A model generated the notes under the pieces. That model was not told the DNA's origin. It made no database searches and saw only the letters and a list, made by a program, of their open reading frames with translations. Positions 8,473-32,423 of a DNA stretch of 64,000 nucleotides are shown here, in pieces. This DNA is from Nitrospirota bacterium (GTDB taxonomy: Bacteria > Nitrospirota > JACRHL01): assembly GCA_029881725.1 (NCBI GenBank), contig JAOUMB010000002.1, positions 43,398-107,397 on the forward strand, given 5' to 3'. The position numbers and the translations under genes were made by a program. Position 1 is the first letter of the stretch. Each line of letters opens with the position of its first letter.

Positions 8473-9582
8473 CACCCCCCGGGCCGTAACCCGGCGGCCG
8501 CCGCTTCTCCCCGCCCCGCCCATTCCGTAATCAGACGGTTATTTTTCCCCATTTAAACCGTTAACGATCCGGTGCTTCGCCCACGAGTGCTATGCGCACG
8601 GGGATATTTGCTGGCTCGGTTATTCGGCCCGGATCGTTCGGCCTCCTCTCCGCCCGGAGGGGGGAGCGTTGGATCCCGTCACAACCGGTTGAAAACACAA
8701 AGTACGGATCATCCCTCCCCTGTCCCGATCCCACCGCGGGGGGGCCAGAATTCCCGCCCCGCACCCCCACCGCAATTTCATTTAATTGGTCGTTAAATCA
8801 AATGATTTTCAACCGCCACCCCCTTCCCGGCCCCCGGCACCCCCCATGGCGCAAACGGACCCCACCGTGTGACCGGCACCCATATTTAAAAAAACCCACA
8901 CACTTTCAATCCCTTCTGCACGTTCCGCTTCGCACGCCAGCGCCTCCACAAGGCCATTTTTTTCAAAGTTTTCAATATGTTCTGAATTTCCTCCGAATTT
9001 TCCCCATATAAACCACCCCAATCGTGCTACCGGCCTTCAGAACCCCTTGATATTCCGTTCCACCTTCACCGTGAACATGCGAAACCCACGGTGCTAAACG
9101 CCACCACAATGCGGATTTTATTCCACAAAAACAGCCAGTTCTGAACGTGAAAACCGTTAATTTCAACCGTGTTTCACTTCGCAACCACAAACGCGTTTTC
9201 TCCCGGTAAAACGGCCGGTTATGTTTTTTCCGCCGATTTTTTGCGAAACAAACCCGCCGTGCCCACAAACGGCCAAAACCACCGCGTTGTCAACGGGTTA
9301 TACCCGGCTGGTTACCGTTGCGCACGGTTTAGCGTTGCCGTTTGCGAAGCGGAGTAGCACGATTGCTCCCCGCCAACGCCGTCGGGGCGGACCTGCTGCG
9401 GCGGGGGGATGAGGCGGTAACCCATTGGTTTTGCGTTCCAAAAATCCACAGAGCAGACCGCATGCGCCAGATGTGCCGGATGCGCCAGCGGAATTCCGGC
9501 GGAAGGGGATACGCTGCCGCAGATTGAACGGGGAACCCCGCACCGGGTGGGGTTTTCCGGCCGCCGCCACACGGGGCCTATA
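8473..9582. other. 1.1-kb region without a convincing gene
   Basis: No ORF here has a recognisable product plus a ribosome-binding site. The composition differs from the flanks: many T and A runs, pyrimidine-rich plus strand, and repeated short AACCG / CGGTT words. Inverted repeats include ACGGTT...AACCGT around 8534-8562 and ATTTAA...TTAAAT around 8780-8800. A GC-rich hairpin (CTCCTCTCC/GGAGGGGGGAG) lies near 8642-8668. A TATAAT hexamer sits directly at the start of the M28 peptidase gene. It could be decayed DNA, a regulatory region or an unknown RNA; I see nothing decisive. Confidence 0.5.
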
Positions 9583-27255: not shown

Positions 27256-27271
27256 TGTTTCATAGTTGAAA
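27256..27271 (+). promoter_or_regulatory. Inverted repeat TTTCA-N4-TGAAA before the sigma-54 activator
   Basis: TGTTTCATAGTTGAAA lies 7-22 bases before the GTG start of the activator. The same half-sites recur nine times at 31456-31621. This suggests the activator's own operator, and its position at the start codon suggests autorepression. Confidence 0.45.
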
Positions 27272-27277
27272 AATTGA

Positions 27278-28711
27278 GTGGACATGCGACAGCTTACCGA
27301 AGAAAAAATCGACCCGGAGGTCATCCTCAACGCCCTCAACGACGGCGTGGTGACCATTGGCCTGGACCGCCGGGTGCACTACATCAACGAGGCCGCCCTG
27401 CGCATTCTCGGCTATTCCCGCACCGAGGCCCTGGGGGCCGAGTGCAGCCAGGTGATCCGCTGCGCGGCCTGCTCCAGCTCCGAATGCCTGATGGACAGAA
27501 CGCTGGAGACCGGGCAGGACATCCGCTCCTACGACACCTATCTGGTGAACAAGACCGGCCAGCAGGTCCCGATCACCGTCAACGCCACCCTGTTGCGCGA
27601 CGAGGACGGGCAGGTGATCGGCGAGGTGGAGGTGTTCCGCGACATCTCGGAACAGATCAAGCTCACCGAGGAGTTGCACGGCAAATACTCCTTCGGGCGG
27701 ATCATCGGCAAGAACCACCGGATGCAGCAGATTTACGACATCCTGCCATCCATCGCCGCCACCAAGACCACCGTGCTCATCGAGGGGGAAACCGGCACCG
27801 GCAAGGAACTCATCGCCCACGCCCTGCACGAGCACAGCGCGCGCTCCGGCAAGCCGTTCGTCAAGTTCAACTGCGCAGCCCTGGCCGAGGGGGTGCTGGA
27901 AAGCGAACTGTTCGGTCACGTGAAGGGGGCCTTTACTGGCGCCGTGGCCGACAAGAAGGGCCGCTTTGAACTGGCCGACGGCGGCACCATCTTCCTGGAC
28001 GAAATCGGCGATATCTCGCCCGCAACCCAGGTACGGCTGCTGCGTGTACTGCAGGAGGAAGCCTTCGAACCGGTGGGTGGCAACCACACGGTGCGGGTGG
28101 ACGTGCGGGTCATCGCCGCCACCCACCGCGACCTGAAGCAAATGGTCCGCGAAGGCAAATTCCGCGAGGACCTTTACTACCGCCTGCGGGTGGTACCGCT
28201 GCACCTTCCGCCCCTGCGCGAACGGCACGACGACATCCCGGCGCTGATCAACCACTTCCTGTCCGGTTTCAACCAGGAAATGGACAAGGACGTGCGCGAG
28301 GTAAGCCCCGAGGCCATGGACGTGCTGATGAATTACCCCTATCCAGGCAACGTGCGTGAACTGGAAAACATCCTGGAGCACGCCATGGTGCTGTGCCGGG
28401 GAAGCCAACTCACCCTGCACGCCCTGCCCAGCGAGGTGGTGCAAACCCGGCGCGGACTGGTGCAAATCAACACCATTCCGCAGTTGTCACAGCCGCCGGG
28501 CGGGGGCCTGATTGGCGTTGCCGTGCGGCCCTCCGGCCCCACCGGCGACAATCCGCTCAAGCAGGTGGAGCGGGAGGCAATTGTGGGGGTGCTCGATCAG
28601 TGCTCCTGGAAGCTGGGCATGGCCGCTGAGCGTCTGGGCATGAGCCGCACCACCCTGTGGCGCCGGATGAAGGAGTTCGGTATCGACAAGCGCGGCGGCC
28701 ACGCTGCGTGA
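27278..28711 (+). CDS. PAS / sigma-54 AAA+ / Fis-type transcriptional activator
   Basis: A 477-residue enhancer-binding protein. Residues 15-120 form a PAS domain ([19 protein letters not shown]), unusual in carrying four cysteines close together ([15 protein letters not shown]) that could bind a metal or Fe-S cluster or sense redox. The AAA+ domain follows, with Walker A GETGTGKE, the sigma-54 contact loop GAFTGA, Walker [12 protein letters not shown], and [15 protein letters not shown] Fis-type HTH ([20 protein letters not shown]) ends the protein. There is no receiver domain, so the PAS is the likely input. The start is GTG 27278 or ATG 27284. The next gene's GTG overlaps its stop. Confidence 0.93.
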
Positions 28712-29544
28712 GCGCCGTCTACCTGACCAAGCGGGCCGAGGTGGCGGTAGCCCACCAGTGCCTGCGCGACGACTGGAATGCGCTGCAGAACGAGGCGGTT
28801 TACGGACTGGAAAGCCGCCCTCACGGCCACAACTACCTGATTGAGGTAACCGTGGCGGGGGAGGTTCGACCGGAATCCGGCATGGTGGTCAACATCAAGG
28901 ACGTAAAGGCCGCCATGGGGGCCGTACTGGCCGATTACGACCACCGCAACCTGAACGGCGACCATCCGGCCTTCGCCCGCCAGGCACCCACCACCGAGCG
29001 GGTGGTGCAACAGATGTGGGCGGACCTGCAAGGCCGCTTGACGGACGGCACCCTGGAGCGGGTACGCCTGTTTGAGAACGAAGACACCTGGTACGAGGCA
29101 CACCGGCCCGGCTCTCCGCTGGCGCCGGGCGTGAAAGCAAGCATGCTGATTACCCGCAGATATACATTCTCCGCCGCCCACCGGCTGCACGCACCGAGCC
29201 TCTCCGAACAGGAGAACCGGGACCTGTTCAGGGATTGCAACAACCCCAACGGGCACGGCCACAACTACACCCTTGAGGTAACCGTCGGCGGCGATGTGGA
29301 CCCGCAAACCGGGCTGGCCACTGACCATCGGGGGCTGGACGAAACCATCCGCAAGGCGGTGGTGGACCGCTACAACTTCCGCAACCTGAACGGCGAGGTT
29401 CCGGAATTTGCGGACCAGGTCACCACGTCGGAGAATATCGTACGAACCATCTGGCAAACCCTGGAGCGGCAACTCGGCGACGGCACCCTGTACCGGATCC
29501 GATTGGGGGAAACCCGCGACAATTATTTTGAATACTATGGATAG
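28708..29544 (+). CDS. Tandem 6-pyruvoyl-tetrahydropterin synthase / QueD-like protein
   Basis: A 278-residue protein with two PTPS/QueD domains in one chain; normal family members have one domain of 120-150 residues. The GTG start overlaps the activator stop. The second domain (from about residue 146) has all expected residues: zinc His in [10 protein letters not shown], catalytic-type Cys in [14 protein letters not shown], and the HGH pair. The first domain keeps VAVAHQC and [13 protein letters not shown] but has no Cys at the matching position ([12 protein letters not shown]), so it is probably non-catalytic or altered. folE follows with an eight-base overlap, so the pair likely convert GTP to a pterin or to 6-carboxytetrahydropterin. 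Which one is open. Confidence 0.87.
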
Positions 29545-30139
29545 CACCATGAGCGTTCTGGAAAATACCACCGACAGCACCGCCACCCTGGAAACCGCCG
29601 AACTGGTTACCCGCATGCTGCACCTGCTGGGGGAAGACCCGAACCGGGACGGCCTGGTGCGCACCCCGATGCGGGTGGCCAAGTCGCTCCAGTTTCTGAC
29701 CTCCGGCTATCAGGAGGACATCAACGAACTGATCAACGACGCCCTGTTCGACGTGGAATACTCCGAACTGGTGCTGGTGCGCGACATCGACTTTTTCTCC
29801 CTGTGTGAGCATCACATGCTGCCGTTCTACGGCAAGGCCCACGTGGCCTATCTGCCCAACCGGAAGGTTGTGGGACTGTCCAAGCTGCCGCGCATTGTGG
29901 ACGTGTTCTCCCGCCGCCTGCAGGTGCAGGAGCGCCTCACCCAGGATGTGGCGCAAGCCGTACAGGAGGCGGTGAACCCCCACGGGGTGGCGGTGGTGAT
30001 CGAAGCCAATCACCTGTGCATGATGATGCGCGGCGTGGAAAAGCAGAACAGCACCACGGTCACCAGTGCCATGCTCGGCACCTTTAAGGACGACCCCAAG
30101 GCGCGTTCCGAGTTCCTCGACCTGATCCGGCGCAGATAA
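29537..30139 (+). CDS. folE: GTP cyclohydrolase I
   Basis: First step of folate, pterin or queuosine-precursor synthesis: GTP to 7,8-dihydroneopterin triphosphate. The 200-residue product shows [18 protein letters not shown], the zinc site [39 protein letters not shown], and the second zinc Cys region [10 protein letters not shown]. The start overlaps the PTPS gene; a second ATG four codons later is possible. Being directly coupled to the tandem PTPS gene favours a pterin branch distinct from the folP and folB copies elsewhere in the window. Confidence 0.96.
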
Positions 30140-30168: not shown

Positions 30169-31458
30169 ATGTTGCAAAGCGCCATTCCGCTGGCCGATGT
30201 GCGCGAGCAGATGGCTGCGTGCATCAAGTGCGCGGCCTGCATGCCCGCCTGCCCCACCTATCGAATTGAACACCGGGAATCCATGGGGCCGCGCGGCCGT
30301 CTGGCCCTCGCGGTCGGACTCCTGGAAGGCACGCTGACCGCCGCCGAGGGCGCCACCCTGCCCATCAGTTCGTGCATCGACTGCCGCGCCTGCGTCCCGG
30401 CCTGCCCCCGCCACATTCGCCTGGACGACGTGTTCTACGCCGCCAAGGCGGAGTTGGCGGCGCAACGGTCCGGTGGCTTTACCAGTTGGGTTATCCGCAA
30501 GGCGGCGCGGGTGATCGTGACCGGCAACCGGTTTCATCGGGTTCTGGCCGCCGGGCGTCTGCTGACCGGCATCTATCGGGGAATCGCCGACACCAGCCCG
30601 GTGGCGCGCCTGCTGCCGTTTTTCCGCAACGGGCGCAAGCGCGTACTGCCGGACATCGTGGTGCGTCCCATGACCGACGACTATGCGGAAGTTGTGGAGC
30701 CGGTGCTCGCCCCCGGCCAGTCGCCAGTGGCCCGGGTGGCGTTCTTCCCCGGCTGCGTCATCAACTTCACCCAGACCGCCATCGGCCACGCCACCGTGCG
30801 GGCATTGACCCGGCTGGGAGTGACCGTGGTGATTCCGAAGCAGGCCCCGTGCTGCGGCATTCCCCTGCTGTCCATTGGCGACCGGGCGGGGGCGAGGCAG
30901 GTGGCCGAAGAGGTGATCCAACGCTATGGCTCGCTGGATGCAGACTGGATCATCACCGCCTGCGCCTCCTGCGGCACCACCCTGCGGGAAACCTACCCGG
31001 ACCTGATGCGAGGCGCCGCCCCTGCCCGGGCGCTGGCGGAGAAGGTCCTGGATGTGAGCGAGTTTATTCACCGCCATACCGACTTCGCGGAACGCGCCGG
31101 ACGCATCACACAGCCGGTCACCTATCATGATCCATGCCACCTGGTGCGCGGCATGGGGGTGACCCGCGAACCACGCGAAATCCTGCGGCAGGTCAGCGAC
31201 GGCCTCATGGAGATGGACGGCGCCGACCGCTGCTGCGGATTCGGGGGCCTGTTCTCCGCCCTGCACTACGACCTGTCCCTGGAAGTGGGGGCCGAAAAAG
31301 CCCGCGCGGTGGCCGCCACCGGAGCGCCGATCGTGGCCACCGGCTGCCCCGGCTGCCAGATGCAGATGACGGACACCCTGAACCGGGAGGGCGTTCCCGC
31401 CCGGGTCCTGCATACGATTGAAGTGCTGGACATGGCGTTGGAGAAGCCCGCCGACTGA
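30169..31458 (+). CDS. Two-cluster Fe-S oxidoreductase subunit, GlcF/GlpC-like
   Basis: A 429-residue protein with an N-terminal double [4Fe-4S] ferredoxin region (CIKCAACMPACPTY and CIDCRACVPACPRH), then two CCG domains (CCGIPLLSIGD near residue 226 and CCGFGGLFSALHYD near residue 355). This matches the Fe-S subunit of glycolate oxidase (GlcF) and relatives such as GlpC; the MGPRGRLAL segment after the first cluster fits GlcF best. The flavoprotein partners GlcD and GlcE are not adjacent, so the substrate is uncertain. A GGAGG ribosome-binding site precedes the ATG. The stop codon TGA is also the first TGAAAC of the downstream repeat array. Confidence 0.83.
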   Translation: MLQSAIPLADVREQMAACIKCAACMPACPTYRIEHRESMGPRGRLALAVGLLEGTLTAAEGATLPISSCIDCRACVPACPRHIRLDDVFYAAKAELAAQRSGGFTSWVIRKAARVIVTGNRFHRVLAAGRLLTGIYRGIADTSPVARLLPFFRNGRKRVLPDIVVRPMTDDYAEVVEPVLAPGQSPVARVAFFPGCVINFTQTAIGHATVRALTRLGVTVVIPKQAPCCGIPLLSIGDRAGARQVAEEVIQRYGSLDADWIITACASCGTTLRETYPDLMRGAAPARALAEKVLDVSEFIHRHTDFAERAGRITQPVTYHDPCHLVRGMGVTREPREILRQVSDGLMEMDGADRCCGFGGLFSALHYDLSLEVGAEKARAVAATGAPIVATGCPGCQMQMTDTLNREGVPARVLHTIEVLDMALEKPAD

Positions 31459-31621
31459 AACGCAAAACGTTCCGAAATGAAACATGCAACCTGAAACACC
31501 CATGAAACCACGGAATGACCAATATATAATTTTATAATACAACGTGTTGTAGCTATCGTTTCACGACATGAAACGCTCTAATTGTTTCAATTTGGAACAC
31601 GAGTTGTTTCACAGCGAAACA
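31456..31621 (+). promoter_or_regulatory. Array of TGAAAC/GTTTCA half-sites (activator binding region)
   Basis: Nine near-identical half-sites: TGAAAC at 31456, 31478, 31492, 31503, 31569; GTTTCA at 31558, 31584, 31606; CGAAAC at 31615. Two form inverted repeats: CGTTTCA-N5-TGAAACG (31557-31575) and TGTTTCA-N4-GAAACA (31605-31621). Several spacings are 11, 22 or 55 bases, near helical phase. An AT-rich stretch with TATAAT-like sequence and a TACAAC-GT-GTTGTA palindrome lies in the middle. Confidence 0.55.
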
Positions 31622-31685
31622 GGCCAAGCGTTGGCGGGAGGATTTTCCACCGTCATTTCAACGAGTTACCGGCATGCCAGAGCGA

Positions 31686-31701
31686 TGGCACGGAACGTGA
31701 A
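31686..31701 (+). promoter_or_regulatory. Candidate sigma-54 promoter for zinc-ribbon gene
   Basis: TGGCACGGAACGTGAA matches TGGCACG-N4-TTGCW at ten of twelve defined positions; the -24 GG is intact but the -12 GC is GA. The ATG follows about 44 bases after the predicted start, and the half-site array lies 70-250 bases upstream, as enhancers do. A second, weaker candidate is TGGAACACGAGTTGTT at 31593. Confidence 0.45.
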
Positions 31702-31755
31702 GTACGTTGTTGTACGCGGTCGGAATATCCGACGCTGTTTTTTAGGAGGTTCAAC

Positions 31756-31950
31756 ATGAACTGCCCGCGCTGCAGCAACACAATGATTGCCGACACCTTC
31801 ACGGATCTGATGGACGACAGTGGCGTGCTGGGCATCACCGCTTGGCGCTGCCTCACATGCGGCGAGGTGGTGGATCCGGTGATTATGGCCAACCGCGCCA
31901 ATCGCCCCGAGCCGTTTGTAAGCAAGTCGCGGAAAAACTGGGGCTCATAA
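31756..31950 (+). CDS. Small zinc-ribbon protein
   Basis: A 64-residue protein. The ORF track starts far upstream; the ATG at 31756 has a perfect AGGAGG site six bases before it. Two Cys pairs, CPRC at residue 3 and CLTC at about residue 34, form a zinc ribbon. The segments AWRCLTCGEVVDPVIMANR are typical of small uncharacterised zinc-ribbon proteins in environmental proteobacteria. No enzyme motif. Its promoter region holds the TGAAAC array, so it seems to be strongly regulated, which is unusual for such a small protein. Function unknown. Confidence 0.75.
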   Translation: MNCPRCSNTMIADTFTDLMDDSGVLGITAWRCLTCGEVVDPVIMANRANRPEPFVSKSRKNWGS

Positions 31951-32081: not shown

Positions 32082-32423
32082 ATGTCCACCGAGACCACCA
32101 CGATCAACGTTACCGAAGCCGCCTCCACCAAGATCAAGGAGCTGCTGGAGAGCGAGAACAAGCAGGACCACGGCATTCGCCTTTCGGTCACCGGTGGCGG
32201 CTGCCACGGCTACCAGTACGGCATGAATTTCGACAACAACATCGGCGAGATGGATCAAGTGATCGAAGCCGCCGGCGTGAAGTTCATCGTCGACGCCATG
32301 AGCATGCCGATGCTGACTGGCGCCCAGGTCGACTACGTGGAGACCATGCAGGGTGCGGGCTTTGCCATCAACAACCCGAACGCCCAGTCCACCTGCGGTT
32401 GCGGCAGCTCCTTCAGCGCCTGA
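32082..32423 (+). CDS. A-type iron-sulfur carrier (IscA/ErpA family)
   Basis: A 113-residue A-type Fe-S carrier that passes clusters to apo-proteins. The three expected cysteines are present: one in GGGCHGYQYGM near residue 44 and two in the C-terminal CGCGSSF. The start NVTEAASTKIKELL is typical. ErpA is the closest guess from the YQYGM and Asn-rich segment, but IscA is not excluded. An AAGGAG site precedes the ATG, and a strong terminator follows, so it is monocistronic. Fe-S rich neighbours such as the GlcF-like protein may be clients, which is inference. Confidence 0.9.
   Translation: MSTETTTINVTEAASTKIKELLESENKQDHGIRLSVTGGGCHGYQYGMNFDNNIGEMDQVIEAAGVKFIVDAMSMPMLTGAQVDYVETMQGAGFAINNPNAQSTCGCGSSFSA

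Follow-up and report, generated by a model that had tools for sequence, protein, structure and literature searches.

Promoters of the NtrC and NifA type combine a -24/-12 site, activator sites tens to about 200 bases upstream, an AAA+ activator with a GAFTGA loop, and RpoN. The locus analyzed here has dyads at 80-230 bases, such an activator, RpoN in the genome, and a -24/-12-like site whose -12 element is poor. The site bound by NtrC is GCAC-N-GTGC, and that of NifA is TGT-N10-ACA. Regulons made up of an activator, dyads and a sigma-54 promoter have been described in Desulfovibrio vulgaris (PMC4641369) and in the Clostridiales (PMC6615313), with one-component PAS activators common among them; both concern phyla other than Nitrospirota. 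The GTTTCA/TGAAAC motif reported below is absent from the main texts of these two papers.

We analyzed a 64,000-nucleotide stretch of a Nitrospirota genome (the window). From its sequence and that of its relatives, we judge with a probability of about 0.8 that positions 31456-31701 are a sigma-54 promoter control region for a small zinc-ribbon gene, run by the activator encoded at 27284-28711. The initial annotation had proposed the layout of an enhancer-dependent promoter, a proposal supported by the conserved -24/-12 site, the conserved dyads, the RpoN encoded in the genome, and the association with an activator.

Half-sites and predicted promoter before the ribbon gene

Eight exact half-sites, TGAAAC or GTTTCA, are packed into the 156 bp from 31456 to 31611, where about 0.06 would be expected. 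On the forward strand, TGAAAC starts at 31456, 31478, 31492, 31503 and 31569, and GTTTCA at 31558, 31584 and 31606. The remaining 22 exact copies are dispersed singly over the window and nowhere form another cluster. By a Poisson estimate, eight half-sites in 160 bp have a probability of 2e-15, and 5,000 dinucleotide shuffles of the local sequence (31456-31755) gave a mean of 0.41 half-sites and a maximum of 4. Besides the dyads listed in Table 1, positions 31469-31483 read GTTTCA-N3-CGGAAC on the minus strand. The strongest dyads in the window are those preceding the ribbon gene and the one at the start of the activator gene.

Much of the initial description of this array holds. The half-sites had been placed 70-250 bases before the promoter, and we find them 80-230 bases upstream of the -24 element, a range comparable to that in relatives; the first does overlap the stop codon of the upstream Fe-S gene, the TGA at 31456-31458 being shared with the half-site at 31456. 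Of the nine half-sites counted, eight are exact, but the ninth (CGAAAC, 31615-31620) is imperfect. The suggested spacing by multiples near 11 bases fits only in part: the start-to-start distances are 22, 14, 11, 55, 11, 15 and 22, and the start residues modulo 11 are 0,0,3,3,3,3,7,7. Helical phasing with an 11-base period is not convincing.

Table 1. Features of the locus, with positions in the window
Feature	Position	Strand	Evidence or remark
GTTTCATAGTTGAAAA, N4 dyad, proposed autoregulatory operator	27257..27272	+	11 bases before activator ATG, right after -10-like TTAAAAT
PAS - AAA+ (GAFTGA) - Fis-type HTH activator gene	27284..28711	+	Pfam Sigma54_activat 2.5e-72, PAS, HTH_8 1.3e-11
Upstream Fe-S protein gene (CCG + 4Fe-4S)	30169..31458	+	Pfam CCG 8.7e-35, Fer4 families
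Upstream part of array	31456..31508	+	TGAAAC at 31456, 31478, 31492, 31503
Sigma-70-like hexamers ATGAAA-17-TATAAT	31502..31530	+	in AT-rich block; 1 found vs 0.4 expected; overlaps half-site
GTTTCACGACATGAAAC, perfect N5 dyad	31558..31574	.	sole exact GTTTCA-N5-TGAAAC genome-wide
GTTTCAATTTGGAAC, N3 dyad, second arm 5/6	31584..31598	.	counterpart GTTTCATTTTGGAAC in L003
GTTTCACAGCGAAAC, N3 dyad, second arm 5/6	31606..31620	.	80 bases upstream of -24 element
-24/-12 sigma-54-type site TGGCACG-GAAC-GTGAA (TGGCACGGAACGTGAA)	31686..31701	+	10-12/12 sites placed alike in ten closest orthologues
Leader hairpin GTCGGAATATCCGAC, then T-run	31719..31739	+	terminator-like match
Ribosome-binding site AGGAGG	31744..31749	+	direct reading
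64-aa zinc-ribbon gene (CPxC...CxxCG), proposed target	31756..31950	+	orthologues in relatives
IscA/ErpA-type Fe-S carrier gene	32082..32423	+	Pfam Fe-S_biosyn 9.3e-22

The sigma-54-type site TGGCACGGAACGTGAA ends 54 bases short of the ribbon gene's ATG, in agreement with the distance of about 55 claimed beforehand. It matches 10 of the 12 consensus positions; the GG of the -24 element is present, and the -12 element has GA instead of GC (GTGAA vs TTGCA). A 10/12 match was also reached in 7 of 200 shuffles, and we regard the site as unremarkable alone, its apparent significance coming from its conservation in orthologues. RpoN itself is encoded in the genome (TIGR02395, 2.9e-137, G000:C95).

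The ribbon protein has four invariant cysteines in the orthologue alignment. It has no match in Pfam. Its YgiT_finger score is 16 bits against a cut-off of 20.2, and its predicted structure is of low confidence (pLDDT 70), with weak fold matches to MqsA and to RNA-polymerase-type ribbons. In the Nitrospirota families f1 and f10 the IscA-type gene comes next after the ribbon gene, at a distance of no more than about 15 bases at locus L005, and the two are possibly cotranscribed. Paralogous ribbon genes elsewhere in the genome (G000:C41) were considered as similar loci and set aside, having neither array nor sigma-54 site. The interval from the activator gene to the Fe-S gene (28657-30139) contains, as recognized by eye, two QueD-like domains in one 295-aa ORF and a GTP cyclohydrolase-like gene.

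Conservation in Nitrospirota relatives

The ribbon gene is present in 42 of 61 Nitrospirota genomes. Each of the ten closest orthologues (L002-L011; f1 and f10) is preceded, 70-78 bases from its start codon, by a sigma-54-type site, and half-sites are found further upstream; the match is 12/12 in L004, L005 and L011, 10/12 in L002, and 11/12 in the remaining six. Groups f2, f6 and f8 have sites matching at 10-12 of 12 positions, 57-160 bases upstream, several of them with TAGCAC or TGGTAC as the -24 element.

For the motif, we counted all k-mers in 25 regions upstream of ribbon genes, grouped by the presence of the activator and not by the motif, and compared the counts with dinucleotide shuffles. 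GTTTCA/TGAAAC was the top 6-mer (67 occurrences vs 7.0 expected, present in 25 of 25 regions) and TGTTTCA the top 7-mer (40 vs 2.2), in genomes that are related and thus not independent. The orthologous spacers have diverged in sequence yet retain the motif. A second arm matching at least five of six positions accompanied 13 of the 67 GTTTCA occurrences at a spacing of three bases and 11 at a spacing of four; other spacings had 0-2, and some second arms read TGCAAC. Because the second arms cluster at a spacing of 3 or 4 and hardly elsewhere, we take the predicted operator to be a dyad of about GTTTCA-N3/N4-TGAAAC. The form proposed earlier, TTTCA-N4/5-TGAAA, was right in being dyadic and in allowing N4, but N3 and N4 are commoner than N5, of which there is a single exact instance genome-wide.

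These comparisons bear on whether the sigma-70-like hexamers at 31502-31530 might drive the ribbon gene instead, with the half-sites binding a repressor or a conventional activator of another family. The hexamers do match at 10 of 12 positions within the array, in its AT-rich block, but distant orthologues retain a good sigma-54 site at a constant distance and the motif accompanies an AAA+ sigma-54 activator across phyla, leaving this explanation improbable. The hexamers could possibly represent a second promoter or a bend.

The likely activator, the leader and other sites in the genome

The protein most likely to act on the array, as judged from the comparisons below, is the PAS-AAA+-Fis activator. 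Its listed ORF begins at a GTG (27278), and the conserved start is the ATG at 27284 (MRQLTEE). The alignment of orthologues contains the GAFTGA loop, a conserved C-x8-C-x3/4-C in the PAS domain, and a recognition helix reading SRxTLWR or GRSTLWR; over 25 activator sequences, two of the PAS cysteines are invariant and the third nearly so. Against the NCBIfam activator equivalogs (NifA, NtrC, NorR, TyrR and others) the protein falls below the curated cut-offs, the best being NifA at 399.6 vs 528.85 bits.

In f2, f6 and f8 the ribbon gene immediately follows an orthologue of the activator gene; the two are separated by about 4 kb in f1 and by about 42 kb in f10. Group f9 has many ribbon genes without a close activator orthologue, and there a half-site occurs in 4 of 25 ribbon upstream regions (one each), against 25 of 25 in the set counted above (Fisher 4e-10; upstream GC content 0.54 in f9 vs 0.41). 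Because some f9 genes keep sigma-54-like sites, the ribbon family may be linked to sigma-54 more widely, via other activators. The f9 genomes G011, G019, G027, G035, G042, G049, G054 and G059 have 8-15 ribbon paralogues each; the sigma-54-like sites, where present, lie about 80-115 bases upstream, and GTTTCA is almost absent.

In a wider collection of PAS-activator loci, half-sites were found within 200 bases before or 400 bases after the activator gene at 20 of 22 loci with the SRxTLWR helix and at 8 of 25 with other helices such as HKSTLFR, in a grouping that was made post hoc, among related loci, and with L161 assigned by hand. The GRxTLWR group, mostly from f10 where the target is distant, was intermediate in half-site frequency. 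Some loci, among them L127 and L164 with more distant SRxTLWR activators, have half-sites and a sigma-54 site before a different next gene (12/12 at L127 and L128, 11/12 at L164). Targets or neighbors of such activators include an IscA-type carrier (f1, f10), 2-oxoacid:ferredoxin oxidoreductase genes (f8), a YgaP-like membrane protein (L128), an ArsP-type permease (L164), and a FeMo-cofactor-family protein (L196). A conserved protein (MCM...CxC..., without a match in Pfam) is encoded after the ribbon gene in f2 (L092, L094) and at L126, where the end of a MoaA-like gene and the activator gene overlap.

A dyad with N4 spacing occupies the same place at the start of the activator gene in all four f1 genomes: GTTTCATAGTTGAAAA in the window, GTTTCATAGTTGAAAC in G003, where it is perfect, GTTTCATAAGTGAAAA in G001, and GTTTCATCGTTGCAAT in G002. 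A genome-wide pattern search for N4 dyads recovered it in G000, G001 and G003, and two f8 genomes have N3 dyads at the activator start. The dyad suggests that the activator regulates its own gene; repression would be the likeliest effect, because the dyad abuts a -10-like element.

Even with the sigma-54 promoter correctly identified, some activator other than the one at 27284 might bind the array, binding by the 27284 protein being a prediction. Leptospirillum-like f10 genomes have a second SRxTLWR activator that carries the motif, as its own GTTTCA-N4-TGAAAC repeats followed by a sigma-54-like site, and because the activator orthologue is 42 kb off and this second activator exists, the regulator of the ribbon gene in f10 is ambiguous. 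Against another activator at our locus stand the neighboring positions of the two genes in f2, f6 and f8, the putative autoregulatory dyads in f1, and the SRxTLWR helix, which among the HTH matches read in the window's own genome belongs to the 27284 protein only; we give such a substitute little chance. At L242 (about 2650-2840) and L243 (about 2500-2735), the gene for this second activator, a cysteine-rich protein, precedes the repeats, the sigma-54-like site and a conserved membrane peptide, some 43 aa long, whose sequence ends in FEKxQxPLIxGIGxF.

If the leader hairpin and T-run (31719-31739) were the main point of control, through attenuation, the terminator-like match there would be accounted for, but we consider this very unlikely: hairpins are common in the leaders of relatives but vary in strength, the T-run is absent there, and the leader has no match in Rfam. 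For these reasons a conserved leader RNA was rejected as a candidate, as was a terminator inside the leader, which is not conserved. At another locus (L117), an exact sigma-54 site precedes a leader resembling, by eye, a c-di-GMP-I riboswitch.

No further members of the regulon were found in the window's own genome among seven exact sigma-54 sites, none of which has more than one half-site in the 300 bases upstream, and the dyad-like matches from the pattern search elsewhere are mostly single and isolated. Matches at GTTTCACTTCGCAAC and GTTTCATTTMGCAAC were rejected as operators, both being part of an interspersed repeat. G000 and G003 also have a TGAAAC ahead of rpoN; it is the rpoN start itself (ATGAAACTC) and was rejected too. 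An interspersed repeat that includes accgtGTTTCACTTCGCAACcacaaacg and cccacaaacggcca occurs in the window at about 9080-9290 and at L199, L200 and L202-L204, on several contigs and often at their ends. That the array is itself part of an interspersed repeat, or that chance or base composition produced a cluster in this AT-rich spacer, has a negligible probability in our judgment, since apart from the existence of a repeat containing GTTTCACTTCGCAAC the evidence runs the other way: the repeat is a different sequence, shuffles of local composition never exceeded four half-sites, and diverged orthologous spacers keep the motif.

Proposed mechanism and known systems

The motif, the promoter, the conservation of both, and their association with the activator are what we read in the sequences, and from them we infer binding, looping, activation and autorepression. 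The activator would bind several dyads of the form GTTTCA-N3/N4-TGAAAC, 80-230 bases upstream of the promoter. On a signal received by its PAS domain, perhaps redox, thiol or metal given the three conserved cysteines, it would contact RNA polymerase-sigma-54 at 31686-31701 by DNA looping and open the promoter by ATP hydrolysis. The promoter would drive the zinc-ribbon gene and probably also the IscA-type gene that follows, and the activator would bind one further dyad at its own start, probably repressing itself.

A broader scheme is more doubtful than this, and we offer it as speculation: that three-cysteine PAS activators are a widespread class sensing redox, thiol or metal signals through those cysteines and using one operator code (GTTTCA-N3/N4-TGAAAC, read by SRxTLWR) to turn on a nearby Fe-S, sulfur or metal gene that differs between lineages, with a zinc ribbon and an Fe-S carrier as the output in Nitrospirota.

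The locus provides a testable set of activator, operator and promoter in a phylum where such control has been little studied, and ties an uncharacterized family of small zinc ribbons to one regulator. The suggested rule relating recognition helix to operator can be checked across phyla, and a regulator that apparently serves a single target locus besides its own operator would make a compact model for enhancer-dependent control.

The text of the open papers we searched contains no description of the motif, of a sigma-54 regulon in Nitrospirota, or of cysteine PAS activators. Among known proteins, the ribbon shares with the YgiT/MqsA-type zinc fingers the form of a small CxxC...CxxCG protein, and its fold weakly resembles the N-terminal domain of MqsA (E 0.5), but it has no HTH domain and lies below the YgiT_finger cut-off. 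Unlike the NtrC and NifA systems, the operator here is GTTTCA-N3/N4-TGAAAC, the sensor is a PAS domain with three conserved cysteines, and the target is a small zinc ribbon. The module is apparently an undescribed one: a new regulon built on a known type of gene switch.
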